IMG/VR virus record: IMGVR_UViG_3300007770_001109
Location: 1 to 25,724 of that record
Reading direction: 5' to 3' (one strand)
Length of the DNA stretch: 25,724 bases
DNA from: a virus
Shown here: positions 92 to 14,792 of the stretch, piece after piece
Numbering within the stretch: the stretch's first letter is position 1
How the letters are laid out: every line of letters starts with the position of its first letter
The notes under the pieces: model-generated
What the model was told of the DNA's origin: nothing
Database searches by the model: none
The model's input: the letters and a program-made list of their open reading frames with translations, nothing else
Position numbers and translations under genes: made by a program

Positions 92-517
92 TTATAATCC
101 CATTTGTTTTAATTCTTTACTTGTGTACCCATATAGAGAAATCAATTCTCTAATTTTATCTTTTGATAACAAATTTAAATAATCTTCTGATTCTGTTTGG
201 CTAATTTGAAAGTATTCCGAAATTTTCTGAATGACTTGTGTATTATAAATAGTACCTTTTTTCTTCTTAATATATTTTAAATATTGTTTACCTTTTGGTA
301 ATACGTTAGAATATACTAAATAAAGTTGTTTAGGTTTAAGATTTAATTTCTGTATTTCATTAACAAAATCTGCCCATTCCATCTTCATAGATAGAAATCT
401 ATGTATCATATAATTAGACCACTGCTTTTTCTCTGTTTCGTTTAGTGAATCCCAATACCCTTTGGTCTGTTTTTGAGTAATATGCGTGATGTGGTCGAAT
501 AGACCTTTATTTTTCAT
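92..517 (-). CDS. 62: Clamp-loader small subunit, gp62-like
   Basis: This 141-residue protein resembles the gp62 clamp-loader subunit of marine T4-like phages. It opens with an FDHITHIT-type segment, followed by an MIHRFLSM motif (residues 38-45), an internal VYSNVLPKGKQYLKYIKKKK segment, and a C-terminal pair of helices ending in LISLYGY. In T4, gp62 joins a gp44 tetramer to load the gp45 clamp on primer-template DNA. Here gp44 and gp45 are also present, but about 16 kb upstream in the transcript, beyond the accessory block. It has its own ATG with a weak AAAGG upstream and a 26-base gap from the preceding gene. The call rests on motif order and on the absence of any other gp62 candidate. 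T4 gp62 is longer (about 187 residues); marine homologues are usually shorter, as here. Confidence 0.75.
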   Translation of the reverse strand: MKNKGLFDHITHITQKQTKGYWDSLNETEKKQWSNYMIHRFLSMKMEWADFVNEIQKLNLKPKQLYLVYSNVLPKGKQYLKYIKKKKGTIYNTQVIQKISEYFQISQTESEDYLNLLSKDKIRELISLYGYTSKELKQMGL

Positions 518-543
518 AAATTAAAACCTTTTAAATAAATAGT

Positions 544-1212
544 TTAAAAATCTTCAAACCCATCCAAAAACTTTTCATACCAATCATTAATTTTTGCATC
601 AATTAATAATGTAACTCTATTAGTATCACCGTCATTCCATAAACCATGTATTTTCTTCGCAAATGTAACGTGATACATTACTCCAGGTTTGAATTGCACC
701 AATGTATAGAGTCCTTTAAATCTTTCTTTAAAGTTCTTAAGCGCAGTACCATCTTTATCATAAGGAACTTCATCCGTCCAGTTGATGCCATTCTTTATTC
801 CATCTTTTTCATAGAGTAATCTAATATCTTCTGGTATATAATCTAAATCCGTTGCCGCCAACCAACAATCATCATTTGTAACAATAGGTATTTGAACTCT
901 TTTTACATCCTCACCCATATCAGTATCTTCATGTAATCCATAAGATGAATGGGCATTTCTTCTCATTAATCTAAATCCAGTTATCTCTGTTTCGAAACTA
1001 TCAAAGATTTCTTTAAAATATGGAGTGTAACCCAATACTCCCCTCAATGGTACATTATTATGATGTTTTTTATGTGATTCTGCTATCTCATTAATACTCG
1101 GTAATGATATACAATGACCGAACGCTCCATCTTCATATTTAAATCGTTCTTCTACAAACTTTTTATCTTTATTTAATTTTTCTATATCGTATTTTTTACA
1201 ATGACGTTTCAT
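544..1212 (-). CDS. Aspartyl/asparaginyl beta-hydroxylase-like 2-oxoglutarate oxygenase
   Basis: The 222-residue protein has the signature of the Asp/Asn beta-hydroxylase cupin family. An HxD iron-binding pair is at H94-E95-D96, in a segment preceded by RLMRRNAHSS and followed by KRVQIPIVTNDDCW. A distal part has His181 or His189 and Arg199 (WNDGDTNRVTLLID), as expected for the third iron ligand and the 2-oxoglutarate-binding arginine. Members hydroxylate Asp, Asn or other substrates using Fe(II), O2 and 2-oxoglutarate. The substrate here is unknown. It overlaps the end of the sulfotransferase gene by 17 bases and is the last accessory gene before gp62. It is one of three distinct 2-oxoglutarate oxygenase types in the window. 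Which histidine is the distal ligand is not certain. Confidence 0.7.
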   Translation of the reverse strand: MKRHCKKYDIEKLNKDKKFVEERFKYEDGAFGHCISLPSINEIAESHKKHHNNVPLRGVLGYTPYFKEIFDSFETEITGFRLMRRNAHSSYGLHEDTDMGEDVKRVQIPIVTNDDCWLAATDLDYIPEDIRLLYEKDGIKNGINWTDEVPYDKDGTALKNFKERFKGLYTLVQFKPGVMYHVTFAKKIHGLWNDGDTNRVTLLIDAKINDWYEKFLDGFEDF

Positions 1213-1879
1213 AAATATTAAAATCCTTTGGCCAATAAACCTTTATTATATCTTTAATTAAAATCCTATCTTCCTTTAAAAATTTTTGTGATATATTTTC
1301 TACTGGTAAACCTTTTAAGTGAGTTTCGTTCCATATAGTATCAAAATCTTCAATTTTAAAATTTCTCCAGTTTAAAAAATCAAAATAAGATTGTGAATCA
1401 GTTTCATCTTTTTTTCTATCATTAAAATAAACAAACCATTCTAAAAAACTTCTCTCTTTACCACCAATGAAAAATTCTTTTTTTAGTTCTCCCTCGAAAT
1501 CATATACACTTCCATCTGGCTGGTATATTATAGGAAATTCTCTTTGACCAACTGCCCCCATTTTTCTAAAATTATATAACGATATTATTCTATCAATAGG
1601 ATTTCTAAGTATAGTATAATACTTTACTTTTTGATTAGGAAAATATTCTTCCAAGCCATTGAAAACACCATGTCCAAAAACTATTTTAACTCTATCTAAA
1701 TCTAAATATTTTAAATATGCTTTTATTCTTGAATGTGGTTCTGTTTTATTAAAACTTAAATCTTTAGGTATTTTACGAGTATATAACTCTAAATACTCAT
1801 CCTCATTCAAATTAGATTTTATATATTCACCTACGGATGTCCCACCACATTTCTGTATGTGTAATAAGGCCTTTACCAA
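1196..1879 (-). CDS. Sulfotransferase (PAPS-dependent, sulfotransferase family 2-like)
   Basis: The 227-residue protein carries both PAPS-binding motifs of sulfotransferases. The 5'-phosphosulfate loop HIQKCGGTS is at residues 7-15, and the 3'-phosphate motif LRNPIDRIISLYN is at 91-103, preceded by the usual FGH segment. Such enzymes move sulfate from PAPS to a hydroxyl, commonly on a sugar or a tyrosine. The frame is open from a TTG at 1903, but the better start is the TTG at 1877-1879. It lies six bases after AGGAGAGGT and overlaps the stop of the upstream oxygenase by only seven bases. There is no PAPS synthase in the window, so PAPS would come from the host. Its neighbours are two 2-oxoglutarate oxygenases, which could supply a hydroxyl acceptor (inference). 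Confidence 0.8.
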   Translation of the reverse strand: MVKALLHIQKCGGTSVGEYIKSNLNEDEYLELYTRKIPKDLSFNKTEPHSRIKAYLKYLDLDRVKIVFGHGVFNGLEEYFPNQKVKYYTILRNPIDRIISLYNFRKMGAVGQREFPIIYQPDGSVYDFEGELKKEFFIGGKERSFLEWFVYFNDRKKDETDSQSYFDFLNWRNFKIEDFDTIWNETHLKGLPVENISQKFLKEDRILIKDIIKVYWPKDFNIYETSL

Positions 1880-2430
1880 TTTAATACCTCTCCTGTAAAC
1901 CAAGTTACTAATTGTTTTCTAACTCCGAATGTTACTTCTGTAACTCTATGTGGTACAATCATTGGTAATTGTACCATCTGGCCAATAGCCGGAGTTAATG
2001 TTTCTACATCATAAGAATCATCTTGACTATAAAAATTGCCCTTAGATGAAATATTCCAATTGAATACTTGTAATTCTCCACCACCATAATCATCATTTAA
2101 ATTAGTAGAGCAAGTTACTCTCTTTATCCCTCTACAGTCATCTACATGCATCCCTACCTTATCCCCCTCATTATATACTTTCAATATCAATGGCCAGATT
2201 CCAGTACAATTGGCGAAGTTACCTATATCCATATTCCCATTTAATCTATCGTATACCCACTCATCTGCCTTCACAACCACATCTTCTACATCATATTTAT
2301 CAAACCCATTCATATATGATAATTCAAACTCCGGTGATAATTTTTTACGTTTGATTAATTCGGTATCCATTTTTAATATTTCATTACACTCATCTTTAGT
2401 GAAAATTGTTTTTACTATATACTTATCCAT
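1873..2430 (-). CDS. 2-oxoglutarate/Fe(II) oxygenase, prolyl-4-hydroxylase (P4Hc) type
   Basis: The 185-residue protein matches the compact P4H-type double-stranded beta-helix oxygenases common in marine phages. The iron ligands are visible as H95-V-D97 in YNEGDKVGMHVDDCRG and H161 in VPHRVTEVTFGVRKQ. R171 is the expected 2-oxoglutarate carboxylate ligand. A GGGEL turn (116-120) lies between them, as in the family. Members hydroxylate prolyl or other side chains; the substrate here is unknown. The start codon overlaps the last codons of the AmpG-like gene by eight bases, and its stop overlaps the start of the sulfotransferase gene. Translational coupling along the chain is likely. Confidence 0.85.
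   Translation of the reverse strand: MDKYIVKTIFTKDECNEILKMDTELIKRKKLSPEFELSYMNGFDKYDVEDVVVKADEWVYDRLNGNMDIGNFANCTGIWPLILKVYNEGDKVGMHVDDCRGIKRVTCSTNLNDDYGGGELQVFNWNISSKGNFYSQDDSYDVETLTPAIGQMVQLPMIVPHRVTEVTFGVRKQLVTWFTGEVLNW
1886..1894 (-). promoter_or_regulatory. Ribosome binding site deciding the sulfotransferase start
   Basis: The minus strand reads AGGAGAGGT here, followed by six bases and then TTG at 1879-1877. The site lies inside the last codons of the upstream oxygenase gene. It would be inside the coding sequence if translation began at the earlier TTG (1903), so it argues for the downstream start. Confidence 0.6.
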
Positions 2431-3625
2431 TTGCTTTATCTCCCCTATCTATAAATTTTATCAATATTAAACCAGGAATTGCAATTAAAGTACAAAATAT
2501 AAAAAAGTATTCCCAACCTATTGACTCTACTAAAAATCCTGTTTGTGATGTAAATATAGTTCTTGGTATTGATACAAAACTTGACAACAAGGCATATTGT
2601 GTTCCTGTAAACTTTACATTAGTAAGTAAAGCAATATATGATATAAACACGGCAGTTCCTAAACCAGAACAAAAACTCTCAAATGATCCTACTGAACAAA
2701 GTAAAATTAGATTTGGTTCTACCCAACTCAATATAACATATCCAAAAGTAGATACCATTTGTAATATACCAAAATAAAATAATCCCTTCATTATATTATT
2801 ATATTTTACCAACAAAATCCCACCAATAAAACTTCCAAGAAGTGTCATCCAAGTACCTATAAACTTCATATATCCAATTTGAGATTTAGTGTATTCTAAA
2901 TCCAGATAATAGGGTACACTCATAAAAAAAGCTAACATATCACCAATTTTGTAAATAAAAAGAAATGCCAATATAATAAATGCTTTATTCTTACGAAAAT
3001 AATCCAATAATGGTTCTATAATTGATTCTCTTATCTTAACTACATAATCATTCTCATCACATATCAATGTAGTAAAAATACCAATACCCATAAGACTTGA
3101 TAAATATAAAAATACAGAATTAAATGATATATAATCTGATAAAATAAATCCTACTGAACCAACAACTGCCATTGCTACTCTATAACCAATTACATATAAA
3201 GAAGATGCCAATGGTAAATGTTTCTCAGATACATTTTCTCGTCTATATGCGTCCACTAATATATCTTGAGTGGCCGAGAAAAATGATAATAATAAACATA
3301 ACATTCCAAGTCCGAATAATTGAGTAGAAATATCAATAAAATAAATTCCGATCGCAGTCAAAATTATAGATACTTGACTTAATAACAACCACCCTCTCCT
3401 TCTACCCAAAAATGGTAAAGAAAACCTATCTAAAAATGGTGCCCACATAAATTTCAAAGAATATGGTAATCCAACTAACCCAAATATACCTATCGTAGAC
3501 AAATCAATTCCAAAGTCTTTCATCCAAGCCTGTAAAATAGAAAGTGTCATTAATAATGGAACTCCTGCAGAAAATCCCATTAGTAAACTAACTATACAAT
3601 CCTTATTTATATAATCTTTAATCAT
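2423..3625 (-). CDS. ampG: AmpG-type muropeptide permease (MFS)
   Basis: The 400-residue hydrophobic protein has about 12 predicted membrane segments and the hallmark stretches of the AmpG family. These are GFSAGVPLLMTLSILQAW (17-34), VGLPYSLKFMWAPFLDRF (51-68), LGRRRGW (73-79), TQDILVDAYRRE (119-130), YVIGYRVAM (144-152) and, near the C-terminus, GTQYALLSSF. AmpG carries GlcNAc-anhydro-MurNAc peptides from the periplasm to the cytosol of Gram-negative bacteria for cell-wall recycling. E. coli AmpG is longer (491 residues, with extra C-terminal membrane segments); this form is shorter but full length for a 12-segment MFS protein, with no internal break. It overlaps the PP-loop gene upstream by eight bases and the P4H gene downstream by eight. 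A phage-borne copy is unusual. The family is secure; the substrate is inferred. Confidence 0.88.
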   Translation of the reverse strand: MIKDYINKDCIVSLLMGFSAGVPLLMTLSILQAWMKDFGIDLSTIGIFGLVGLPYSLKFMWAPFLDRFSLPFLGRRRGWLLLSQVSIILTAIGIYFIDISTQLFGLGMLCLLLSFFSATQDILVDAYRRENVSEKHLPLASSLYVIGYRVAMAVVGSVGFILSDYISFNSVFLYLSSLMGIGIFTTLICDENDYVVKIRESIIEPLLDYFRKNKAFIILAFLFIYKIGDMLAFFMSVPYYLDLEYTKSQIGYMKFIGTWMTLLGSFIGGILLVKYNNIMKGLFYFGILQMVSTFGYVILSWVEPNLILLCSVGSFESFCSGLGTAVFISYIALLTNVKFTGTQYALLSSFVSIPRTIFTSQTGFLVESIGWEYFFIFCTLIAIPGLILIKFIDRGDKANG

Positions 3626-4364
3626 TTAATATATCGTTATAATTAGATTTCCGTTTAATAAATCCATAATCGGATTGGCAACACCCAATCGTTTCATCAT
3701 CATACTCTACCACTCCCCCACAGATAGACCCATTTGGTTTTGGCCATCTACAAGACCAAGTATTTTCAAGTACGTTTTTAAAATCGTGATTAATGGAATC
3801 TTGAATCATTTCTTTTCTATAAGTTTTTGAAATTGGAAACTTCCAATATTTGTAAATATCTAACTCTCTAATTTCAGAATGAGATATAGAAAAATCATCG
3901 TTCATATGTTCTCTCAACAATTGAGTTGCTGGTGAATAACCACCAACATTAATATCTTTTTCATAACCAATTTCAAAAATTTCCTTTCGATGTAGTGCAT
4001 ATTGTGCCATAAAAAAATTTTGATCAATAAGTCTATAACTATGATTATATTCTTCATGTAGAAATCTAATCTTTTTATAAACTTCTTTATTTATTGGAAA
4101 TTCATCTATTAATATCGTTGGTGGAAATAGACTTTCTGTATAAGGAAATTGTTTAATTATCATTTCTCTTAACTTTTCCATAACCTTAACTTCCACCTCT
4201 CTACTATCTCTACCTAACGGATAAGGTGGATAATAACCATCACAAGGAAAGTTCAAATAATAAGTTTGTATTGGTTTTTTATCTATTATAACTCTTTTGC
4301 AAACCAAATAAGTGGAATCTATACCACCACACCAAAAAATATTATGTTCTTTTTCCGAATACAT
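3618..4364 (-). CDS. PP-loop ATP pyrophosphatase, QueC-like
   Basis: The 248-residue protein has an N-terminal PP-loop, WCGGIDST (11-18), the variant SGGxDS motif used by N-type ATP pyrophosphatases to adenylate a carboxyl, carbonyl or thiol-acceptor group. Its C-terminal region has NTWSCRWPKPNG followed by spaced cysteines (C205, C215, C228, C229). This recalls the zinc-binding WSC...C..C..C region of QueC, the 7-cyano-7-deazaguanine synthase. The order PP-loop, helical middle and Cys cluster fits QueC/ExsB relatives, but the Cys spacing is not canonical. No FolE, QueD, clear QueE or tRNA/DNA transglycosylase is seen, so a deazaguanine role is not supported. Its start overlaps the end of the radical SAM gene by 23 bases, which suggests the two enzymes act together. 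Confidence 0.65.
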   Translation of the reverse strand: MYSEKEHNIFWCGGIDSTYLVCKRVIIDKKPIQTYYLNFPCDGYYPPYPLGRDSREVEVKVMEKLREMIIKQFPYTESLFPPTILIDEFPINKEVYKKIRFLHEEYNHSYRLIDQNFFMAQYALHRKEIFEIGYEKDINVGGYSPATQLLREHMNDDFSISHSEIRELDIYKYWKFPISKTYRKEMIQDSINHDFKNVLENTWSCRWPKPNGSICGGVVEYDDETIGCCQSDYGFIKRKSNYNDILND

Positions 4365-5277
4365 CTTTATCTAAAACCTTTTCCCTTGTATCATCATAAG
4401 CTGGACACATATTACATATATCCTCTTCTTCCTGTCTCATCCAATTTACCATTTCTTCAAGAGTTGCATCACCACTTAAAGGTTTGTATTTAAGATACGG
4501 TTTCCATTTAGGGTGAGTATGTAAACCAAATTTTGTTAACGCACTTTTTAAATATGCTATAGGTGGACATTTCCATAAAGTATTTTCATATAACTGAACA
4601 TTTTGAACTCCACCATTTGCCCAAGAACATTGACAAATCTCCCAACTTTTTCTGGGTTCTTTATCTTCATAAGGTCTCATAGTTACACCATGTCCTTTAT
4701 ATTGTTTTCTCCAAATACCGTCATTATGAATTCTTCCACCACCCAAATCCACAGCATCAGTACCAGTCCATCCAAAGCCTTCAGTATAATCGAAAGACCT
4801 ATAATCTAATCCCTCGTCTGACCACCTTCGTAATTTTTCTTTTACTGGAGTAATCATATCGAGATATTTTTTCTCTTTGGAATGTTCTGTTAATTTTAAA
4901 ACTATTTTATTATCAATTAAAACTCTTTTTAAATTTTTATGTTTATGTAAATAAGTTCCGTTTGTAAAAAGTAGAATATTATTATTCGGAACATATTTTC
5001 GTGTCATCTTCAACATATCAACCAAATGTCTATTAAGTGTAGGTTCTCCACCCAATAAGCGAACCTCTAATTCCAATTGATTGAATTTGTCACTCCATGT
5101 TTTCAGATATTCTTCAAATCTTTCAAGTCCTAAATAACCACCAATTTTATAATTAGAATAATGATCACAACCATTACAAAAAAAATTACACATATTAGTT
5201 AAATGTATATTAGTACAATAGTCAAATGGTTTTTTATATTTATAAGGTTTATCTTTATTATCTCTAATATAATCCAT
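4342..5277 (-). CDS. Radical SAM enzyme with C-terminal cysteine cluster
   Basis: The 311-residue protein has the radical SAM cluster motif CNFFCNGC (C30, C34, C37; CxxxCxxC) and the SAM-binding LLGGEPTLN segment (74-82). Additional cysteines at C215, C217, C237, C288 and C291 look like ligands for a second metal cluster of the SPASM/twitch kind. Such enzymes use a 5'-deoxyadenosyl radical to modify peptides, nucleotides or cofactors. The start has AAAGGT at a good distance, and the 3' end overlaps the PP-loop ATPase gene by 23 bases. A second radical SAM protein of similar plan lies at 14773-15552. The substrate is unknown. A SPASM-type auxiliary cluster would point to peptide modification, but that is inference. 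Confidence 0.8.
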   Translation of the reverse strand: MDYIRDNKDKPYKYKKPFDYCTNIHLTNMCNFFCNGCDHYSNYKIGGYLGLERFEEYLKTWSDKFNQLELEVRLLGGEPTLNRHLVDMLKMTRKYVPNNNILLFTNGTYLHKHKNLKRVLIDNKIVLKLTEHSKEKKYLDMITPVKEKLRRWSDEGLDYRSFDYTEGFGWTGTDAVDLGGGRIHNDGIWRKQYKGHGVTMRPYEDKEPRKSWEICQCSWANGGVQNVQLYENTLWKCPPIAYLKSALTKFGLHTHPKWKPYLKYKPLSGDATLEEMVNWMRQEEEDICNMCPAYDDTREKVLDKDVFGKRT

Positions 5278-5294
5278 TTACAACCTTTTTTTAT

Positions 5295-6857
5295 TTAATA
5301 CTCCCACAAAGAAGAACTGAATGATGCTGACATTTGAGTTAATATATTTTCAGTATACTGTGCTACGTTGGTACTATAATTAGACCAATTATATGTAGTT
5401 CCACTGGCAATATTATATGATAATAAATCCATTTCTTGGTTATGTGCATCTGATCCAGAATATGCCCCAGTATACGATGCCGTATTTGGTTCGAAAATCG
5501 TATACATTCTATTTTCAAACAATACCAACTTATCATCACAAAATAAAGACCTATTATAAGAAGTTGAATCCGATCCACTTCCTGCAGTTTGTCCATAAAT
5601 CAAGTCTTGATTCGGTGCTGTACCCACACTACCAACAGTTCCTTCTCCCATTGATGAACTAACATAAACATCACCAACCAATACATCCGAAGCCTTTGTT
5701 ATTTTCCAAGTACTTCCACTCTTAATAGGAATTAAAGCAGTGCTATCAAAAACTGTTCCATCAATAGTTACACATTCCTCACTATAATCTGGATAAAATA
5801 CAAACTTATTACTGCTTGTTGTAAAATTAAAACTACCTGTATATGAAGTATAAAATCCTTGTCTTTCACTTGGTATATTGTATTCAAAAGAATCCAAATT
5901 TAAATCATCAATTTTTACGGTTTTAATACTATCTGAATTATCAGAAATACTTGATGAATGTATTTGTAACGGTGTTTTTGTACTACCATCTGCCAATGTG
6001 ATATTTGTATTCTCACCACAAACACCAGCATATACTAACTTACGTTTTAACTTCAAATCTTTATCAGAATAATCAGTAAGTGTGCTTCTTCTAAATGAAA
6101 TGCGACCATCACCAACATTTCTATGACTACTAATTGGAATTACAGTACCATCTTCCGTTAATACTACTCTATAACTAATATCTCCTGTAAAATATCCCCA
6201 TTTATTATTATCTGGTGGATAGTATTTTTCAACAAATGAGGCAGTTACTGCCTCATTTGACGCAGATATAGTAGTATTATTATCACTAGACTCATAAAAT
6301 GATAAACCGGCTCCAGTATCCATAGTGGACACTTTCCAAACAAAATCTGGAATTCCTGTATCGTTATGAGATGCAATTTGATTTGATCCTGTATTTGGTA
6401 TCAGACTTCCACTACCTATTTCGTTTACAAAGTTTATAAGATTTAATTTATCAACTGCATGATAATCTAATTTACTATTTATACAACTAGTTACTCTCAA
6501 ATCTAATGTAGTACTACTATCTATTTCATCTAACCCCTCCACATATTGATTTTGATCTATATATATTGAAGATGAAATATCATGTGTAGCAAGACTTGAG
6601 GAAAGTTTTGCAAAGACTTCAGGTGATACAGATGTTAAAGTATTACCAATCCAATCTATCGCATAATATGCATAATCGGAGTGATGTACTTTAACTTCAG
6701 TTAAACTTTGATCTGAGCAATACTGTGCTAATGCATCAAAATCAAAATTATACTCTGGTCTGCTATATCCCCCCATAGATACATCTGTATTTATTTCTAT
6801 TAATTTTAATGAACCAGAAGATGCAATCCAATCAAAACTAACTACTGTACTTTTCAT
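5295..6857 (-). CDS. ATP-grasp-like protein with Hint-like and Ser-rich C-terminal region
   Basis: This 520-residue protein matches no single family that I can name with certainty. Its first ~275 residues look like an ATP-grasp ligase: LKLIEINTD (17-25), DKLNLINFVNE (136-146), IPDFVWKVSTMDTGAG (169-184, K175 a candidate ATP lysine), FVEKYYP (208-214) and ISYRVVLTEDGTVIPISSHR (227-246). Several of these match the protein at 12613-13467. From C280 the sequence becomes Hint-like: CGENTNITLADGS (280-292), then VTIDGTVFDSTALIPI followed by W384 and ASDVLVGDVYVSSSMGEG (389-406). This resembles the first and W...DL.VGD blocks of Hint/intein folds. The usual His of the second block and the terminal His-Asn are missing. 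The last 80 residues are Ser/Tyr/Asn-rich, like a virion protein. It has its own GGAG ribosome binding site and a 43-base leader. A structural protein remains possible. Confidence 0.5.
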   Translation of the reverse strand: MKSTVVSFDWIASSGSLKLIEINTDVSMGGYSRPEYNFDFDALAQYCSDQSLTEVKVHHSDYAYYAIDWIGNTLTSVSPEVFAKLSSSLATHDISSSIYIDQNQYVEGLDEIDSSTTLDLRVTSCINSKLDYHAVDKLNLINFVNEIGSGSLIPNTGSNQIASHNDTGIPDFVWKVSTMDTGAGLSFYESSDNNTTISASNEAVTASFVEKYYPPDNNKWGYFTGDISYRVVLTEDGTVIPISSHRNVGDGRISFRRSTLTDYSDKDLKLKRKLVYAGVCGENTNITLADGSTKTPLQIHSSSISDNSDSIKTVKIDDLNLDSFEYNIPSERQGFYTSYTGSFNFTTSSNKFVFYPDYSEECVTIDGTVFDSTALIPIKSGSTWKITKASDVLVGDVYVSSSMGEGTVGSVGTAPNQDLIYGQTAGSGSDSTSYNRSLFCDDKLVLFENRMYTIFEPNTASYTGAYSGSDAHNQEMDLLSYNIASGTTYNWSNYSTNVAQYTENILTQMSASFSSSLWEY

Positions 6858-6870
6858 ATTTAATTCTCCA

Positions 6871-6905
6871 AGTAATGGTCGCTATATATAATAAATATCA
6901 TTACT
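6871..6905 (-). repeat. Inverted repeat / AT-rich element between PIG-L and ATP-grasp/Hint genes
   Basis: Seven-base perfect arms AGTAATG (6871-6877) and CATTACT (6899-6905) flank a 21-base AT-rich loop containing TATATATAATAAATAT. The element covers most of the gap ahead of the 520-residue gene, just upstream of its GGAG ribosome binding site. A related element lies ahead of the sliding-clamp gene (19236-19270). It could act as an RNA hairpin or as a promoter region; the sequence alone does not say which. Confidence 0.45.
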
Positions 6906-7437
6906 TTTGATATTTTATAAAAGATTCATTATAGAAATAATTTTCTAACATGGGTAAATATATTAACCCAAGTTCTTTCATTTGACTTTTATAATAATTT
7001 AACAATTTTAATTTTTGTTTAACCTCATCCAAACTTAAACCTTTTCCGTGATTATCAAAACAATATAAGTTATCCAAATCTGGAATTTCTTTCTCTACGC
7101 ACTCAAAAACTTGTCTATGATGTGGATGTTCATAATTATTATCACCAACTTCATTATGAGTTAAAACCATATTCCAATTTTCCTCTCTTAATGTTTTATG
7201 TAACTTCTTTCTAATACCTTCTGTATCTAAATCCACTTTCCATTCATCATGAAAATTCCATATTTCATAATCTACCTTTACTCTTTTCATTACACTTTCA
7301 AACTCAGACCTTCTAACTGTATTATCTCCATTAGTGACACAAATAACTTTATGAATAAATCCATAAGTCAATAATGAATTTCCTGCAAAAATTGTCTCAT
7401 CATCTGGATGTGCAACAATTAATAAATTATTTAACAT
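6901..7437 (-). CDS. PIG-L/LmbE-type zinc-dependent N-deacetylase
   Basis: The 178-residue protein begins with the family signature AHPDDE (9-14), which supplies zinc ligands and the catalytic aspartate. It also contains THNEVGDNNYEHPHHRQVF (93-111), which supplies the distal histidine ligands. PIG-L enzymes remove N-acetyl groups from GlcNAc-containing substrates (GlcNAc-PI, mycothiol and bacillithiol precursors, lipid or polysaccharide sugars). It overlaps the preceding SGNH-like gene by 11 bases. Next to sugar kinase, GT25 and SGNH-like genes, a role in trimming an N-acetyl sugar of a glycan is plausible, but the substrate is not shown. The length is at the short end of the family and both metal motifs are complete. 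Confidence 0.85.
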   Translation of the reverse strand: MLNNLLIVAHPDDETIFAGNSLLTYGFIHKVICVTNGDNTVRRSEFESVMKRVKVDYEIWNFHDEWKVDLDTEGIRKKLHKTLREENWNMVLTHNEVGDNNYEHPHHRQVFECVEKEIPDLDNLYCFDNHGKGLSLDEVKQKLKLLNYYKSQMKELGLIYLPMLENYFYNESFIKYQK

Positions 7438-8149
7438 TTAACTCCTTAAACTTTTCATAAATACAATTTTGATATTTAACCGTCATGTGTGATAAATCTC
7501 GTGCCTCCAATGAATCATCTGTAGATTTATCATAGTCATAAAATGATTCCGCTAATTTTACATAATAATAATTACATCCAATTTCCTTTGACAATCCTTT
7601 AATAGCATTAATATAAGTTTCCTCTATAAATTCACAATATCCTTCATCACAAAGAAAATCTAAATAAAAATCTTTATGTTTGAACTCACTCCAATTATTC
7701 ATTTGAAGTAATTCACTTTTGTTAAAAAACTCAAATCTAGAGTGATTAATAGTAAAATGAAATATATTTTTTATCTTTAAATGATCTTTCCATCCATATA
7801 ATAATCTATAATCAGTCTGTATGCCATGTCCACCTTGACTAAGATTCCAAAACTTTCCACCTACATCTTGATTTATTTTATATGACCAGGTATTTTCTAA
7901 ATGATGTCCAGTACCCATTGTATTACTATCCCCAAGAAAAACATTACCTTCATCTACTTCATTAAAATCATCTGGTGTCCTGAATCCATAATTGTTAAAA
8001 CTATATTTTATTGGATTTTCTTTATAATGTCTTATTGATTTATTATCATTACCATACTTAATAGTATTTTTCTCAAATAACTCCAAAGAATCGGCAGTTG
8101 TCCATTTACAAATCGTATTAGATGGATAATCTGAAATTCTATAATTCAT
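7427..8149 (-). CDS. SGNH-hydrolase-like protein (third of three)
   Basis: The 240-residue protein carries SGNH/GDSL-type blocks. Block I is FLGDSNTMGTG (71-81, candidate nucleophile S75), a Gly segment is NLSQGGHGIQTD (102-113) and a C-terminal DLSH (D218, H221) forms the expected Asp-His pair. SGNH enzymes are esterases or acetyl-transferring/removing enzymes for lipids and carbohydrates. The N-terminal 65 residues lie outside the SGNH core and contain YGFRTPDDF, a segment often seen ahead of block I in phage and bacterial SGNH proteins. It overlaps its neighbours on both sides (4 and 11 bases). No signal peptide is present, so action in the cytoplasm or on virion components is more likely than secretion. 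Confidence 0.7.
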   Translation of the reverse strand: MNYRISDYPSNTICKWTTADSLELFEKNTIKYGNDNKSIRHYKENPIKYSFNNYGFRTPDDFNEVDEGNVFLGDSNTMGTGHHLENTWSYKINQDVGGKFWNLSQGGHGIQTDYRLLYGWKDHLKIKNIFHFTINHSRFEFFNKSELLQMNNWSEFKHKDFYLDFLCDEGYCEFIEETYINAIKGLSKEIGCNYYYVKLAESFYDYDKSTDDSLEARDLSHMTVKYQNCIYEKFKELNVK

Positions 8150-8781
8150 ATTAAACTTCTTATATATTTTGCTAAATTTTTATGTCCTTGCTCAGTAGGA
8201 TGTATTTTTCCATCTACTAATTCTAAAATTTTCTTTGTATCTAAAACTGACTTTGGTAATTCATTTTCTATTTGTTCATCTGCAATTGGATGAAATTGAT
8301 ACAACTTTTGATTAAATTCTTTACATATAGCATCTACCGACCACATATATCTCACTAATCTACGTTTAACATCATTTTCATCATAATATTCTTCATAATA
8401 CTCTTTAGCATTTTTATCTTCTTCAATCAAATTAAGTGTTATTCCACTATAGAATCCACCTTTGTTAGACCAAATTTCGGTTCTATGTGAAAATGTCCAT
8501 TGAATTACATAAATACTTTTCTTTTTATTGTTCAAAATATGATCAAAAAATGTTCTGAAGATTCTATCGTTACTACCACCTCTCCAACCATAATTTTCAA
8601 CTTTACAACTTAATAAATTCCCAAGAATATATGGATAACTTTTTTTAGATGGTTTATGATATTTTAATTTAAGTGGCATAAAATTTCTCTCATCTTCCAT
8701 ATCTTCATACCAATTTGGTAAATCATCTAATTCATCACCGAAAGTAAATGAACAACCAAACGCTATAACATTGTCATTCAT
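8146..8781 (-). CDS. SGNH-hydrolase-like protein (second of three)
   Basis: The 211-residue protein starts almost directly with block I, AFGCSFTFGDEL (7-18), where S11 is the candidate nucleophile after a Gly-Cys. It continues with NYGWRGGSNDRIFR (63-76), IQWTFSHRTEIW (93-104) and the C-terminal DGKIHPTEQGHKN (190-202), whose D190 and H194 fit the Asp-His pair. The GCS form replaces GDS, a common variant in phage SGNH-like proteins. It overlaps the previous gene by eight bases and the next by four. The resemblance to the neighbour at 8774-9448 (GCSxTxG, GGS.D, IQW) suggests these two arose by duplication. The substrate is unknown. Confidence 0.65.
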   Translation of the reverse strand: MNDNVIAFGCSFTFGDELDDLPNWYEDMEDERNFMPLKLKYHKPSKKSYPYILGNLLSCKVENYGWRGGSNDRIFRTFFDHILNNKKKSIYVIQWTFSHRTEIWSNKGGFYSGITLNLIEEDKNAKEYYEEYYDENDVKRRLVRYMWSVDAICKEFNQKLYQFHPIADEQIENELPKSVLDTKKILELVDGKIHPTEQGHKNLAKYIRSLI

Positions 8782-9448
8782 CTCTTATTAATTCCTTATA
8801 CAAATATTTCGAATAATTATCATACCATAATTCATTTGGATGGCCGTCTTTAAGTCTGTATTTATTTTCAGTATCTAAATAGAATGGAAACTTTAAAATA
8901 TTATCAATATTATATAATTCAAATAACTCTCTTTGTTCGTGTCCAATCTTCGGTGATAAATTATAAACTTTTTTAAATGAATTTATCACTTGTAAATTAG
9001 ATAAATTTCTACTAATAACATAATCCCAATCAGCAATTTTACTAAAAGGTTTTGTTATATCCTTTCCATCATTTGGATAATATCCAACATATTCACCTTC
9101 ATTAAAATACATTCTTCTGTCAAAATTTGGCCATTGAATAACTACACAATCTATATCAAGTTTCTTTATAACTTTATTGTAAATGACATAAGCTAAATCT
9201 ATACTCCCACCTGGAACTCCAAAATTCAAACAATTGAATTCATCATTAGATAGTTTTTGGATTTGTGAAGGATAAGTATCTTCATTTTTTACTCCTTCAC
9301 CATATGTGAGAGAACATCCAAAAAATGCTATATTTTTTTTATATCTTTCTGTATTTAAATCAAGTGGTCTGTGTGAATGTCCAAATACATTTTCATAATT
9401 GTCAAGATAAATATTAAGATTCGATAAAACGATATTTTCATAATTCAT
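8774..9448 (-). CDS. SGNH-hydrolase-like protein (first of three)
   Basis: The 224-residue protein shows FFGCSLTYGEGV (42-53, candidate nucleophile S46), LNFGVPGGSIDLAY (74-87), VVIQWPNFDRRMYF (102-115) and a C-terminal DGHPN (201-205), where D201 and H203 stand in for the family's Asp-x-x-His. The tighter Asp-x-His spacing is a deviation that could affect catalysis. The block order matches the neighbour at 8146-8781, supporting a tandem duplication. The start overlaps the end of the aaRS-like/GNAT gene by 11 bases. No membrane segment or signal peptide is visible. An acyl-ester hydrolase or acyltransferase on a glycan or lipid is the likeliest class. Confidence 0.65.
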   Translation of the reverse strand: MNYENIVLSNLNIYLDNYENVFGHSHRPLDLNTERYKKNIAFFGCSLTYGEGVKNEDTYPSQIQKLSNDEFNCLNFGVPGGSIDLAYVIYNKVIKKLDIDCVVIQWPNFDRRMYFNEGEYVGYYPNDGKDITKPFSKIADWDYVISRNLSNLQVINSFKKVYNLSPKIGHEQRELFELYNIDNILKFPFYLDTENKYRLKDGHPNELWYDNYSKYLYKELIRDE

Positions 9449-10850
9449 TTATTTCACCAAATTCTTCTATCCAATTAGAACCAACGTGTCCCATCTTTTT
9501 CACAATCTTTAAAGATTTCCAATTCCAACCATCTTGATAATTTACATCAGTAGTGTAACCATTATTATAACTCCAATTATATGAAGCTGAAATAAAATCT
9601 TTTATAAATGTAGGATATTTTCTATTACTTCTATATTTTGGATGACAATACCAATGACCTGAATAATGATAATTTTCAGGTAAATTAACTTCAGCACTCC
9701 AAGAATCGTGATCTTTTATTATAAAACTATTAGTAAAATACCAATCCCATTGAACTCCCATTCCATTATGAAATGCAATTTTTAAAATATGTCCTTCTTT
9801 AATCCTTTCTACTGCATCTACAAATGTCCAATTATACTTCCAACCTATCTCTTTATCACATTCCCATAATCCTAATTTAATTTCTGATTCTCGTCTGTAT
9901 AAAGAATCTAAATCAGTAATAACCTCGAACTCTATATCTTTAAAATCCACATCTATATCTTTATAATTTCCCATGTCATTCTTAGCAAACCACCAATTCT
10001 CATCACCAAGTCTATACCAACCAACCTCATTCTCTACAACATTTTTATATCCATGTTTTTTATTTTTATTAAAATAAACAGGATAATTAAAATTAACATC
10101 TTCACCTTTTTGACTTATCAGAGCATACATAAGTCTTTCTAATCCCCAACCCCAACATCCAGAGGAAACGTCTTTTGTTTGAGTATTTTTTATATTAAAT
10201 CTATTATGATACAATTTACCAACAAAATTAAAAGAACCAACTGGTAAATACTTTTTCTCATTTGGAAAATATAATTTAAATTCTATCTTCGTACCATTCA
10301 TTCTTTGAGCTCTTCTTTTAGCCTCAACATTAGTACCAAAAAATGGATCTGTGGCGTTTTCAAATTTATAATCTAACTTCAGATATTCAAAAATCAGTCT
10401 TACATATTCTACTGATTTAGCAAAACAATTTTCAACATAATCATGACTACCTATATGAACAATTTCTTGTCCTGTAAAATTTATTAATCTTGTTAAATCA
10501 TTCAATTCACCTTCTTCAAATCTACTACATTTACCAGTTAAAATATGAGTCTTATTACCATCTACAAAATCATCAGCATAATAAGAATACATATGATAGC
10601 ACACGGTTGGTGAATTCATTCCTATATCAGAACCATCTAAATGTCTATGTACCATTTGAGCCTGATTAGAAAATGAATTAGTATAATTACTTCGAGTTGT
10701 ATTTTCTGGTGATAATATGGATGGTGTTAATAATTCTGTACCATCAAAAACATCTTTTATAAAAGATTTAGTTTTTTCTTGTATTTGATAATATAAATCA
10801 ACATACCTATCACTTAAAACAAATAACCCATTACCAATTTGTTTGTACAT
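9438..10850 (-). CDS. Amino acid:carrier-protein-ligase-like (class II aaRS homologue) fused to GNAT-like domain
   Basis: Residues ~20-265 of this 470-residue protein resemble amino acid:[carrier protein] ligases, truncated SerRS homologues that load amino acids on carrier proteins instead of tRNA. Matches include SPENTTRSNYTNSF, PTVCYHMY (C84), motif 2 around CSRFEEGE (R110), GQEIVHIGS (E129), ATDPFFG (166-172), SFNFVGKLYHNRFNI and motif 3 SGCWGWGLER (C232). C84, E129 and C232 fit the Cys-Glu-Cys zinc site of atypical SerRS enzymes and these ligases. No tRNA-binding coiled coil is present. The C-terminal ~160 residues are Trp-rich and end like a GNAT acyltransferase: HWYCHPKYRSNRKYPTFIKD, then WNWKSLKIVKKMGH. 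The frame is open from a TTG at 10871, but the ATG at 10850 has AAGGA five bases upstream. No acyl-carrier protein is seen nearby. Confidence 0.65.
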   Translation of the reverse strand: MYKQIGNGLFVLSDRYVDLYYQIQEKTKSFIKDVFDGTELLTPSILSPENTTRSNYTNSFSNQAQMVHRHLDGSDIGMNSPTVCYHMYSYYADDFVDGNKTHILTGKCSRFEEGELNDLTRLINFTGQEIVHIGSHDYVENCFAKSVEYVRLIFEYLKLDYKFENATDPFFGTNVEAKRRAQRMNGTKIEFKLYFPNEKKYLPVGSFNFVGKLYHNRFNIKNTQTKDVSSGCWGWGLERLMYALISQKGEDVNFNYPVYFNKNKKHGYKNVVENEVGWYRLGDENWWFAKNDMGNYKDIDVDFKDIEFEVITDLDSLYRRESEIKLGLWECDKEIGWKYNWTFVDAVERIKEGHILKIAFHNGMGVQWDWYFTNSFIIKDHDSWSAEVNLPENYHYSGHWYCHPKYRSNRKYPTFIKDFISASYNWSYNNGYTTDVNYQDGWNWKSLKIVKKMGHVGSNWIEEFGEINEL

Positions 10851-10855
10851 TATAT

Positions 10856-10860
10856 TCCTT
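10856..10860 (-). promoter_or_regulatory. Ribosome binding site supporting the ATG start at 10850
   Basis: The minus strand reads AAGGA, then ATATA, then ATG at 10850-10848. The alternative TTG at 10871 has a GGAGGAG directly abutting it with no spacer, which is too close to serve that codon. The shorter protein is therefore preferred, although the GGAGGAG about 20 bases upstream of the ATG is unexplained. Confidence 0.5.
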
Positions 10861-10898
10861 ATTACTTTCAACTCCTCCAGATAAACAAGCTAATATTT

Positions 10899-11144
10899 TC
10901 AAATATCTAACCCCGTACCCTCGGTAAATAATTTTGGAACCACTCCACAATTTCCACAACTATATACTTGAACTGGTGCTATTACTTCCTGACCAGTCGG
11001 TGATATTATTGCAGAAACCTTCTTTATTACATATGAATTAATAAAAAGATAATTACCACATTCATCACACTTCAAAGTATCTGCTTTTGACAAATCTACT
11101 TGTTTTTGTGGGCTAGCTAATGGTTTCATTGGTTTTGTACTCAT
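10899..11144 (-). CDS. Small zinc-ribbon-like protein of unknown function
   Basis: The 81-residue protein has two CxxC knuckles, CDEC (26-29) and CGNC (63-66), about 33 residues apart, as in a zinc ribbon. A short N-terminal tail (KPLASPQKQVDLSKAD) precedes them. I recall similar small ribbon proteins in marine T4-like phages, without a defined role. It has a strong GAGGAG ribosome binding site seven bases before the ATG. It begins one base after the HldE-type kinase gene and stops 48 bases before the ATG of the aaRS-like/GNAT gene. It lacks the DSL serine motif of acyl-carrier proteins, so it is not the missing carrier. It could be a nucleic-acid or protein-binding adaptor. Confidence 0.7.
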   Translation of the reverse strand: MSTKPMKPLASPQKQVDLSKADTLKCDECGNYLFINSYVIKKVSAIISPTGQEVIAPVQVYSCGNCGVVPKLFTEGTGLDI

Positions 11145-11145
11145 T

Positions 11146-11940
11146 TTATAACTCCTCTAAATTAACTGTTGCTACTCCGTGTTTTTGTACTACATGGGTG
11201 GTACACTTTTGTGCAAATTCTATTGCACTTTCTATATTATTTGTATCTAAATAACCCCGAACTAATCCTGCAATGAATGTATCTCCTGCTCCACTTACAT
11301 CCTTGACAGGAACTTCTTCTACTGTAAAGTCTTTTCCATTCCATCTACAACCTTTACTACCTAATGTAACAATAAGTTTTTCTTCAAATCCTTTTTCTGA
11401 TAACATCTCATGGTTTTTCTGGTATTCTAACTCATTTATCTTAATATAATCTGCGTCTTTAACCCACTCACCAAGTTTCTTTTTAGTATCAATAAATACA
11501 TTCTTATTATTTTTACAAATATATTCAATGTCACTTTCTTCTAAAAATCCTTTACAATAATCTGATATGATAATTGCATCATAATAGTTTTCAGTCGTTG
11601 AACCAAATCCGAATGGAGCTCTTTCAAATTTATTCTTTATAATTCCTTTTAATAAAGTTTCTTCAATTCTTTCACAATAATCATGTTCATCAACTCTTAA
11701 TACCATTTGACCTGAACGATTTTCTACATATCTTTTTTTAATAATACTATTTTTATTTGTTACGGTATGAATGTGCATATCTAATGATTCAACATTATTT
11801 GCAACATTTTTTGCCATACCATCATTTTTTTCTGTATGTGTTGGTTTAAAAACTGGGATAGGCGCTTCAGGACTTATTCTTTCTATGTCTCCATAGGTAA
11901 AAACATCCTTACAACTATCTCCTATAACTAATACATTCAT
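11146..11940 (-). CDS. PfkB-family sugar kinase, HldE/RfaE kinase-domain-like
   Basis: The 264-residue protein resembles the kinase half of HldE, which phosphorylates D-glycero-D-manno-heptose 7-phosphate in LPS-core or capsule heptose synthesis. Typical stretches are VLVIGDSCKDVFTYG (3-17), RISPEAPIPVF (21-31), a Gly/Asn segment GMAKNVANNV (41-50), RSGQMVLRVDEHD (75-87) and the PfkB active-site motif DVSGAGDTF (214-222) with D220 as the catalytic base. The cytidylyltransferase half of bifunctional HldE is absent. At 264 residues it is also shorter than the usual ~320-residue kinase domain. A four-base ATGA overlap couples it to the GT25 gene upstream. The substrate, heptose phosphate or another sugar, is inferred. 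Confidence 0.78.
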   Translation of the reverse strand: MNVLVIGDSCKDVFTYGDIERISPEAPIPVFKPTHTEKNDGMAKNVANNVESLDMHIHTVTNKNSIIKKRYVENRSGQMVLRVDEHDYCERIEETLLKGIIKNKFERAPFGFGSTTENYYDAIIISDYCKGFLEESDIEYICKNNKNVFIDTKKKLGEWVKDADYIKINELEYQKNHEMLSEKGFEEKLIVTLGSKGCRWNGKDFTVEEVPVKDVSGAGDTFIAGLVRGYLDTNNIESAIEFAQKCTTHVVQKHGVATVNLEEL

Positions 11941-12629
11941 TTTATTTTCTCCTTATCATAATAAAAATTCTTATCGGATGGTGGAGTTGTATTAGAATCA
12001 CCATTATCTATTTGATATGCCAATCGTTGATTTGTAATATAAGCATTTAATAATCCCTTTCTGACTACTCGATGTGTCATATCAGAATCGACTGCCATTT
12101 TAGGATATTTTAGATGTTTTAAAAATACTTTACAAGCCTTTTTGTTGACCATAAAGCATTGATTACCTGGTTTATAGTCATATGTTGAAAAAAAATTATT
12201 AATTTTCTCTTTAATGACTAAATCAGATTTTATATAACCAAAATGAACCATATCCCAATCCTTTGGAATGTGTTTTATACATTCATTAAATTTTTCTTCA
12301 AAATCACCTATACAAACACAATCATCTTCAATTATAAGTATATTACCATAATCTTTATTTATATTTTTTTTATATATTTCAAGAAAGGTTTTATGTAAAC
12401 CAACTGACCCAGGTGTCAATGATTTACCCAATTTAAATCCTGATCTTTTAGTCTCATAAAGTTCGCCTAATAACTTTTCCTTTTTATAATTTATTTTTTT
12501 ACCATCTATTGCAGGAAATCTCTCTGTTTTAGATAATAACGGAATTTTACTTAATTGATTTTCCATTTTTTTTCGTCTATCTTGACGATAATCTAAATTT
12601 ATATAATAAGATTTATGAAACATATTCAT
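11937..12629 (-). CDS. Glycosyltransferase family 25 protein
   Basis: The 230-residue protein shows the GT25 (LPS biosynthesis) pattern. It has an N-terminal YYINLDYRQDRRKKM (8-22), a FPAIDGK turn (38-44), LTPGSVGLHKTFLEIY (71-86) in the position of the family's GxxGCxxSH segment, and ILIIEDDC (97-104) with the acidic EDD that binds the nucleotide sugar and metal. GT25 enzymes add a sugar, often galactose, to LPS core or to hydroxylysine in collagen-like proteins. It follows the ATP-grasp-like gene with a 17-base overlap. Two in-frame ATGs lie two codons apart; the second (12623) is better spaced from AAGGA. The acceptor is unknown; a phage or host surface glycan is likely. Confidence 0.8.
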   Translation of the reverse strand: MNMFHKSYYINLDYRQDRRKKMENQLSKIPLLSKTERFPAIDGKKINYKKEKLLGELYETKRSGFKLGKSLTPGSVGLHKTFLEIYKKNINKDYGNILIIEDDCVCIGDFEEKFNECIKHIPKDWDMVHFGYIKSDLVIKEKINNFFSTYDYKPGNQCFMVNKKACKVFLKHLKYPKMAVDSDMTHRVVRKGLLNAYITNQRLAYQIDNGDSNTTPPSDKNFYYDKEKIK

Positions 12630-13467
12630 ATTCCTTTGAATCCTTAAAATAACCTTTATACCTTGATTTTAATGATAAACCCAATCTATTTTCTATCTCA
12701 GATTTAATACTTGAATATTGATACTCTGGTATATCAATTGGTTGTAAATTCTCATAATCAGTTATATCAATAGATATATTTTTTCCACATAAATGATAAG
12801 TATTCAAATAATAATCTGATACTATATAATCTTCACAATACTCGTCCACAAAAGCATCTTGATAATCTTCCTTGTCAAAAAGATAAATACCCTTTCCCGA
12901 ATCAAGTTCGGTATCTTTCATAACAAAATCTGGTACACCATTACCCTTTTCAGTTACATCCTCTAATCTTAATATTTGTTTTGGAAAATTAAGTTTATCT
13001 CCCAAATATTGTCTTACCCATCTTTTATTTGTAGATAAATGTTCAATAAATGCAAACTCACGATTAAATGTTTGTTGAAAATTGAAAATTGATGGATCAT
13101 CAGAAAAATCCATATAAACAAAATCTCCGACATCTTCGTTCACCGTTTTTATTTTTATCTCCTTTTCCATTAAATTATATAAACTTCCATCACGACCTAC
13201 ATTCCAAAACACAAGTTTACTATAATTGTTATTTACTAAAAAATCTTGTAGAATACTCAAATCAAGTTGAGTTTTGGAAGTTACGGTTGCGGCTGTATCT
13301 ATTTCTAAAAAATACAATTTGCCATCCTTTGGTATTAAAGAAGTCTTAACTAATATAAAATGATTAGACAACTCCATATATTCTTTCATATCTGATGAAA
13401 TCGATTCGTGAAAAATATCAGATTGTTTTTTAATTATCGGAATATAAATATTTAAATCAAAGTTCAT
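12613..13467 (-). CDS. ATP-grasp-like protein, relative of the one at 5295-6857
   Basis: The 284-residue protein has no certain family name but shares landmarks, in the same order, with the N-terminal half of the 520-residue protein at 5295-6857. These are DGKLYFLEIDTA (48-59) against SGSLKLIEINTD; a KLVFWNVGRDGSLY segment against EVKVHHSDYAYY; GDKLNF against VDKLNL; and VPDFVMKDTELDSGKG (178-193) against IPDFVWKVSTMDTGAG. The VMK...GKG segment resembles the ATP-binding lysine and glycine loop of ATP-grasp ligases, which join carboxylates to amines or thiols. No Hint-like region is present here. The frame opens at 13524, but an AAGGAGG ribosome binding site supports the ATG at 13467, which cuts the overlap with the upstream gene to 11 bases. 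It sits between two GT25-like genes. Confidence 0.55.
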   Translation of the reverse strand: MNFDLNIYIPIIKKQSDIFHESISSDMKEYMELSNHFILVKTSLIPKDGKLYFLEIDTAATVTSKTQLDLSILQDFLVNNNYSKLVFWNVGRDGSLYNLMEKEIKIKTVNEDVGDFVYMDFSDDPSIFNFQQTFNREFAFIEHLSTNKRWVRQYLGDKLNFPKQILRLEDVTEKGNGVPDFVMKDTELDSGKGIYLFDKEDYQDAFVDEYCEDYIVSDYYLNTYHLCGKNISIDITDYENLQPIDIPEYQYSSIKSEIENRLGLSLKSRYKGYFKDSKEYEYVS

Positions 13468-14230
13468 CCCAAGCCTCCTTACCTCTCGGTAATCTCCCAC
13501 CTTTGTATAAAAGATATCGTTCATTTTGTATTAATGAAAAGGTTTGGTTTTGGTATGCACAGTAGGGTAAATAGTCTGCTATTTCTATATTCTCTCTATT
13601 AATATGAATATCTGCAGGAAGTATACCTTTTACTTTCGATTTTTCTATCAATTTTTTTGCTACATTGGGTGTTATGACATAAGAATGTGCTCCGTGTAAA
13701 AAATACTCTTGACAATGACATCCCTGATATTCGAAAACCTTATCTGTACATTCACATTCTCTAATAGAGAATCCCTTTTTCTTCATTTTTCTTTTTTTAA
13801 TTATTTCTCCCCAATTCTCATTAAAATCAATTTTTTTTGGTTTTTTTGGGGTTTCGTCCCATAATGGTTCACCAATATTTACTACACCTTCAAACTCATA
13901 ATCTATATATTTTTTCTTAAAAATAGTATCATGTTCTAAAATCATAATTCTCTTATTCAACTCAATACAATGTTCCCATAGTGAATAATGACTAAAAAAA
14001 CAAGATAACGCAGGATCTAAAAGTTGCCATTTTGTCCAATGTGCATCATAATCTAAAAGTTTAAAATTATATTTTTCAAGTAACTCCTTTCCCTCATTTT
14101 TATGATAACCATCCCACAATTCAACATCTATTTTTCCAACATTTTTAGCTGAATTAATTGTATTTAATGCAGATTCATAACTAAGTTTATTTGATGAAAC
14201 ATGAATTACATATTTTTTAAAATCCGACAT
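13457..14230 (-). CDS. GT25-like glycosyltransferase
   Basis: The 257-residue protein is a more divergent GT25-like enzyme than its neighbour at 11937-12629. It begins YVIHVSSNKLSYESALNTI (7-25). It has LSCFFSHYSLWEHC (75-88), corresponding to the family's GxxGCxxSH region, then RIMILEHDTIF (94-104) with EHD in place of EDD. The C-terminal ADIHINRENIEIADYLPYC and YQNQTFSLI match the P.D......P....Q.....S pattern. A Cys-rich stretch (ECECTDKVFEYQGCHC) in the middle is unusual for the family and may bind metal. It overlaps the methyltransferase gene upstream by 14 bases. It probably transfers a sugar in the same pathway as the second GT25. Confidence 0.68.
   Translation of the reverse strand: MSDFKKYVIHVSSNKLSYESALNTINSAKNVGKIDVELWDGYHKNEGKELLEKYNFKLLDYDAHWTKWQLLDPALSCFFSHYSLWEHCIELNKRIMILEHDTIFKKKYIDYEFEGVVNIGEPLWDETPKKPKKIDFNENWGEIIKKRKMKKKGFSIRECECTDKVFEYQGCHCQEYFLHGAHSYVITPNVAKKLIEKSKVKGILPADIHINRENIEIADYLPYCAYQNQTFSLIQNERYLLYKGGRLPRGKEAWDEL
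13474..13480 (-). promoter_or_regulatory. Strong ribosome binding site fixing the ATP-grasp-like start
   Basis: The minus strand reads AAGGAGG, then six bases, then ATG at 13467-13465. The site is inside the last codons of the upstream glycosyltransferase gene and is among the strongest Shine-Dalgarno matches in the window. It argues against the longer frame beginning at 13524. Confidence 0.7.
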
Positions 14231-14792
14231 TTTTAATCCAACTTGAATCTACGAAACACTTATCAGGTTCACCAACTAACTCGTTTACAACATCACATAC
14301 GTCTTGAAATTCCTTATTATAATCATGACCACCGATTAGTCGTAGTGCCTTTAATTTTGGTAAATATAATTCTATATCTTTTAATACATCTTCATAATAA
14401 TGACTACCATCAATATAAACAAAATCAAATGATTTATCTTTGAATTTATCAACTACATTATAACTAAAATCTTGATGTAATGTAATGTTATCAAAAAACC
14501 TTGTATTCATATTAAACTCTTGTTTAACTTCCCCCCAATTATTTCCTAATAAATCATTGGCCTCCTCTTGTCCTTGAAATGGATCAATACAATGTATCTC
14601 TTTAAACATACCAGAAGAAGCAAATAAACAAGTTGACTCTCCCATATAACTACCAATTTCAATCATCTTTAAGTCACTTCTTCCTTTAAAAAAATCGTCT
14701 AACCAAATTATCATTTCTGATAGCCCTAAAAATAAATGATTACTCATATTGGATTTCCATTCATCCAAAGGGTTAAATCTTAGAGTATTCAT
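14217..14792 (-). CDS. Class I SAM-dependent methyltransferase (Methyltransf_24-like)
   Basis: The 191-residue protein shows a Rossmann-fold methyltransferase order. MIEIGSYMGEST (43-54) is motif I for SAM, EIHCIDPF is motif II, FDFVYIDGSHYYEDVLKDIE (123-142) covers motifs IV and V, and GGHDY follows. The DGSHxYxxVxxDIxxxxPxL pattern is typical of the Methyltransf_24 group, which often acts on sugars, such as O-methylation in surface glycans or antibiotics. The start overlaps the end of the radical SAM gene by 20 bases and the end overlaps the GT25-like gene by 14. The substrate is unknown, but a glycan fits the neighbours. Confidence 0.8.
   Translation of the reverse strand: MNTLRFNPLDEWKSNMSNHLFLGLSEMIIWLDDFFKGRSDLKMIEIGSYMGESTCLFASSGMFKEIHCIDPFQGQEEANDLLGNNWGEVKQEFNMNTRFFDNITLHQDFSYNVVDKFKDKSFDFVYIDGSHYYEDVLKDIELYLPKLKALRLIGGHDYNKEFQDVCDVVNELVGEPDKCFVDSSWIKNVGF

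Follow-up and report, generated by a model that had tools for sequence, protein, structure and literature searches.

A T4-like phage encodes a permease of the AmpG family, and its gene is embedded in a conserved cassette of small-molecule enzymes. AmpG proteins import GlcNAc-anhydroMurNAc peptides; nutrient and metabolism genes have been described in phages before. In our preferred reading, to which we give a probability of about 0.4, the phage protein would be an importer that feeds a wall-derived amino-sugar peptide to the cassette for modification. We favor a role tied to the cassette over plain nutrient recapture because the cassette around AmpG is conserved. The fixed place of the gene among small-molecule enzymes makes this a testable case of a phage drawing on cell-wall recycling for its own product; if true, it would represent a phage biosynthetic route starting from host cell-wall fragments. 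Our search of the open-access literature, outside of which many subscription papers lie, turned up no account of a viral AmpG, and we provisionally regard the occurrence of AmpG in phages as new.

The Window and Its AmpG Gene

The window, i.e., the whole stretch of DNA analyzed, is a virus record of 25,724 bases. It can be assigned to a phage because homologues of gp41, gp43, gp44, gp45, and gp62 surround AmpG. These T4-like replication genes comprise a helicase (gp41), a polymerase (gp43), and the two clamp loader subunits (gp44 and gp62), together with a DNA methylase; gp45 is named by position only. A B12-type ribonucleotide reductase is also encoded, and no Rfam family matched anywhere in the window. 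The closest named phage to the window polymerase is Microcystis phage Mel-JY01 (45%). The AmpG-carrying phages are an uncultured T4-like group, probably of marine origin as judged from their relatives.

The AmpG-family reading frame occupies positions 2423–3625 on the minus strand and runs uninterrupted from ATG to TAA over 400 codons, encoding a transporter of 400 amino acids and 12 helices. The original prediction had placed an intact, in-frame AmpG gene at exactly these coordinates, within a phage operon and among enzymes that ligate, hydroxylate, or sulfate. All of this is borne out: the gene overlaps its neighbors in every copy read and is no stray, and PP-loop-motif and ATP-grasp-like proteins, a 2OG-Fe(II) oxygenase, and a sulfotransferase are present.

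Profile, Fold, and Conserved Residues

Four lines of evidence, namely profile, fold, conserved residues, and phylogeny, place the phage protein in the AmpG family, as first proposed. It scores 402.1 bits (E = 2.3e-120) against the AmpG subfamily model TIGR00901, whose cut-off is 350, and the copies from five sister phages, at 387–418 bits, all exceed it as well. It is not a member of the E. coli-type AmpG equivalogs, scoring 304.6 bits against PRK11010 (cut-off 756) and 291.7 bits against PRK11902 (cut-off 656). The RhtX/FptX model TIGR02718 gives 126.2 bits, below its cut-off of 356, and this score, together with the tree described below, rules out a siderophore importer of the RhtX/FptX type. 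The Acatn model PF13000 passes its gathering threshold (46 bits versus 23.7) over residues 21–152 only, and AmpG is by far the better match. A sequence search of the PDB returned AmpG (8zgz, E = 1.2e-74), the acetyl-CoA transporter weakly, and nothing else.

An AlphaFold model of the phage protein built from 30 relatives (pLDDT 86.5, pTM 0.85) has inward-facing AmpG 8zgz as its top fold (Z 50.0, TM 0.90), and it compares with 8zke, the AmpG complex with GlcNAc-1,6-anhMurNAc, at Z 44.9. The first non-AmpG family follows at Z 38.8; the absence of other named families from the fold lists was not counted as their exclusion.

Aligned with about 150 cellular AmpGs, the window protein carries the same residue in 64 of the 79 columns where cellular AmpG reaches at least 90% conservation. 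Almost all of the conserved charged and motif residues are retained, i.e., K58, D66, R67, R75–77, Q84, Q120, D121, D125, R128, R149, E191, K226, D229, K254, Q289, E316, Q343, and R355, as are the AmpG-typical W34, Y55, and Y148; a conserved Arg at 212 is Lys. Four residues of P. aeruginosa AmpG, namely G29, A129, Q131, and A197, have been shown to matter (PMC5154545). The first three correspond to G21, A118, and Q120 of the window protein and are all kept, and A197 aligns, by hand, with S176, a position that is also Ser in one cellular sister. The PAO1 A197S mutant lost function, but its transcript was also reduced or lost (PMC5154545). The position of E. coli G268 is G257 in the window protein and Ser in some sister phages. 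A clear loss of residues needed for muropeptide transport, which would have spoken against the original assignment, is not seen, with cautions at Ser176 and at the G268 position of those sister phages.

Viral Copies and Their Phylogeny

Scans of IMG/VR for AmpG recovered five further contigs in which the gene is intact, with 83–90% identity to the window copy. A careful tree of 65 rows places all six viral copies in a single clade (100/100) on a long stem of 1.5 changes per site. Trees nest the clade within cellular AmpG, with RhtX/FptX outgroup rows outside; placement in another MFS group, the outcome named beforehand as contradicting the assignment, is not seen. The best cellular relatives, 46–49% identical, come from Nitrospirota, Desulfobacterota, and Gammaproteobacteria. 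Sister to the viral clade (97/91) are the AmpGs of four AT-rich Gammaproteobacteria with genomes of 1.0–1.2 Mb (L067, L072, L105, and L108). Removing either partner leaves the other close to that node, with weak support. Phylogeny was expected to show whether the viral copies form a clade and from which host they came: the clade stands, and small-genome, AT-rich Gammaproteobacteria are its nearest, tentative source. The origin is held as tentative because the leave-out support is weak and the base composition is shared, which may itself contribute to the placement.

Other phage records gave a different picture. INPHARED, an annotated phage collection, holds only distant AmpG copies (about 35% identical or less), which have the appearance of host DNA and were rejected as viral genes. 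In the Acinetobacter MD-2021a record (L009), protease La and rpmE are listed beside AmpG; in Moraxella phage Mcat17 (L008), AmpG lies just outside attR; and Escherichia phage EC22.5-2 (L007) is a 3.7-kb unverified contig with AmpG. We also set aside a contig of an unrelated phage (L214) that carries only the start of AmpG at its end, treating it as a host junction.

The Cassette and Its Locus

All cassette genes of the window lie on the minus strand, as AmpG does. Upstream of AmpG, the order is constant: a ligase-like/GNAT gene, a PIG-L deacetylase, a 520-amino-acid protein, a radical SAM enzyme, and a PP-loop protein, followed by AmpG and a 2OG oxygenase. The ligase-like protein (9438–10871) resembles amino acid:[carrier protein] ligases with the SerRS fold (phmmer to Bll0957, 3mey, E = 2.3e-11) and has a GNAT-like C-terminus; it scores 86 bits against NF005479, below the cut-off of 357, and no carrier protein gene to go with it was identified. 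It is class II tRNA-synthetase-like, and the phage collection gave only a single match to it, weak and partial. The PIG-L/LmbE-type N-deacetylase (6901–7437) matches PF02585 (E = 4e-17). The 520-amino-acid protein (5295–6857) has, by motif only, an ATP-grasp-like N-terminus (EINTDV) and a Hint-like C-terminal half; it matched neither family models nor the PDB, hhalign supports ATP-grasp kinship weakly, and its AF2 model is unusable (pLDDT 31). The protein is serine-rich, and related phages have at the same locus proteins that begin with an ATP-grasp-like part and continue into Hint-like (intein/hedgehog) domains (L203 14096–15967; L188 3386–5650). The radical SAM enzyme (4342–5277; PF04055, E = 8e-9) carries extra C-terminal cysteines and weakly matches several rSAM families, none above cut-off. 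The PP-loop ATP-pyrophosphatase-like protein (3618–4364) has a GGIDST motif, C-terminal TWSC...CG cysteines that look QueC-like by eye, and a weak QueC-like PHROG match (E = 0.004), with no family match in Pfam, NCBIfam, or the PDB. Downstream of AmpG lie the 2OG-Fe(II) oxygenase (1873–2430; PF13640, E = 4e-8) and a sulfotransferase (1196–1903; PF03567, E = 1.5e-7).

In six of six contigs, AmpG sits between the PP-loop and 2OG genes, an arrangement taken from gene order in L004. In the five contigs whose ORFs were read, two overlaps of 8 nt each join these genes, one between the PP-loop stop and the AmpG start (in the window, ATGATTAA) and one between the AmpG stop and the 2OG start. Other genes vary among the six contigs, including the SGNH-like and GT25 genes and the sulfotransferase, which is present in three of the six phages and was not found in L003–L005. 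Further genes of the sister cassettes, identified by eye, include a second PP-loop protein, a FabZ-like hotdog protein, and an extra ATP-grasp-like protein (L003 108–662, L001 2451–2822, and L005 236–916).

In the window, the block as a whole is bounded by gp62 (92–517, minus strand; phrog_225, E = 7.6e-17), the clamp loader small subunit, and gp44 (16755–17681, minus strand; PF00004 AAA, E = 9.6e-19, with clamp-loader-type matches), the large subunit; clamp-loader genes also flank it in those sister contigs that reach far enough. The metabolic gene block thus spans 16 kb (517–16755), and the gp62–gp44 interval, hypervariable between related phages, looks like an insertion hot spot. By similarity, the window AmpG is closest to that of L002, the radical SAM and 520-amino-acid proteins to those of L001, and PIG-L to that of L003, with which it is 99% identical while the other cassette genes of the same contigs are far more diverged. 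The cassette is mosaic gene by gene, its genes having recombined separately, yet the set stays complete.

An alignment search with the PP-loop protein found homologues (39–62%) in 19 further contigs (L185–L203), in most cases next to these clamp-loader genes. None of the 19, several of which are fragments, carries the AmpG, radical SAM, 520-amino-acid, or ligase genes within the stretch read. The corresponding search with the radical SAM enzyme returned AmpG-bearing contigs only. These two control searches therefore tie AmpG to a specific cassette and not to the locus in general, in a sample of six close relatives at one locus that holds few independent cases. At the same locus, one related phage encodes two long proteins that, by eye, are made of MORN-like repeats (L185 10001–12756).

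Selection and Composition

Viral AmpG is under strong purifying selection, with dN/dS between viral copies of 0.11–0.15, lower than in the four other cassette genes computed (PP-loop, 0.21–0.35; radical SAM, 0.13–0.39; 520-amino-acid protein, 0.23–0.50; PIG-L, 0.13–0.42). The GC and GC3 of AmpG agree with those of the phage, so the gene looks like an old resident. The 2OG copies of the window and L001 show no silent differences, part of the same gene-by-gene mosaicism. A stray host gene or contamination is ruled out by the presence of AmpG in six contigs, at a phage replication locus, and under selection.

Proposed Function and Alternative Explanations

The original prediction had offered three candidate roles: recapture of wall fragments as nutrients, silencing of muropeptide-based signalling, and passage of a phage-made glycopeptide. 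In our reading, the phage AmpG is presumably a proton-coupled inner-membrane importer. During infection, it would move a peptidoglycan-derived amino-sugar peptide, i.e., a GlcNAc-anhydroMurNAc-peptide or a close analogue, from the periplasm to the cytoplasm, where the PIG-L, ligase/GNAT, ATP-grasp-like, radical SAM, PP-loop, and 2OG enzymes could alter it, yielding a phage-specific compound as the end product. The modeled fold and the retained residues suggest that the substrate is likely related to GlcNAc-anhydroMurNAc peptides, and the presence of PIG-L, a deacetylase type acting on amino sugars, counts for a wall-derived substrate. Counted against it is that the stretches read contained no recognizable amidase, NagZ, or anhMurNAc kinase. 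The scores below the PRK11010 and PRK11902 cut-offs and the change of A197 to Ser176 also weigh against a muropeptide importer, and the long stem means that specificity may have shifted. In a fuller scheme, which we consider rather unlikely, an imported GlcNAc-anhydroMurNAc peptide would pass through deacetylation, aminoacylation, ligation, radical modification, and hydroxylation by the cassette to become a phage-specific compound.

A first alternative is a shifted substrate, in which an AmpG-fold transporter would carry what the cassette makes, or some other peptide-like molecule, in place of muropeptides. RhtX/FptX relatives of AmpG import siderophores, and the long stem, the failed equivalog cut-offs, and cassette enzymes of a secondary-metabolite type all speak for such a shift; we nevertheless judge it rather unlikely, given a score of only 126 bits against the RhtX/FptX cut-off of 356, a tree position inside AmpG, and the retention of W34, Y55, R128, Y148, R149, K254, Q289, E316, Q343, and R355. 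A second alternative is a plain auxiliary metabolic gene: in a nutrient-poor setting, a second AmpG would boost the uptake of released wall fragments, whose sugar, amino acids, carbon, and nitrogen would be recycled into phage production, its neighbors being unrelated. That AmpG is a recycling permease, that its nearest cellular sisters are small-genome, AT-rich Gammaproteobacteria, and that it is under purifying selection fit this account. We hold it to be unlikely, since AmpG was found only with the cassette while PP-loop relatives at the same locus go without it, the overlapping starts and stops are fixed, a linkage that nutrient recapture leaves unexplained, and no other recycling gene was recognized in the window.

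The remaining accounts are much weaker. Muropeptide-based stress signalling, which the original prediction had suggested might be silenced, draws on the role of AmpG in governing muropeptide-driven AmpC induction in model bacteria (PMC5154545): clearing wall fragments from the periplasm would blunt envelope-stress or muropeptide sensing, or affect a superinfecting phage. Silencing is disfavored because imported fragments would reach the cytoplasm, the site of AmpR-type sensing, and raise the signal; with no cassette gene pointing to signalling, we find this role very improbable. Even less credible is a neutral hitch-hiker, a host-captured gene kept through linkage: the locus is a hypervariable insertion site, as such an origin would have it, but dN/dS of 0.11–0.15, an intact gene in every contig, and a phage-like composition oppose it.

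Comparison with Known Transporters

The phage model shares the 12-helix inward-facing fold of E. coli AmpG (TIGR00901; 8zgz, 8zke, and 9c3f), and the phage protein has the family motifs GRRRGW, SATQDI..DAYR, YKIGD, and TQYALL. The two proteins are about 33% identical, and the phage protein differs in being phage-encoded, on a long stem, and within an enzyme cassette. The AmpGs of the four small-genome Gammaproteobacteria are, like the phage, AT-rich and occupy the sister position, but they are cellular and about 41–45% identical to phage AmpG. RhtX/FptX (TIGR02718) and SLC33A1 (Acatn) are branches of the MFS whose kinship with phage AmpG can be detected in both sequence and fold; RhtX/FptX differ from it by a score far under the cut-off and by their outgroup position in the tree.
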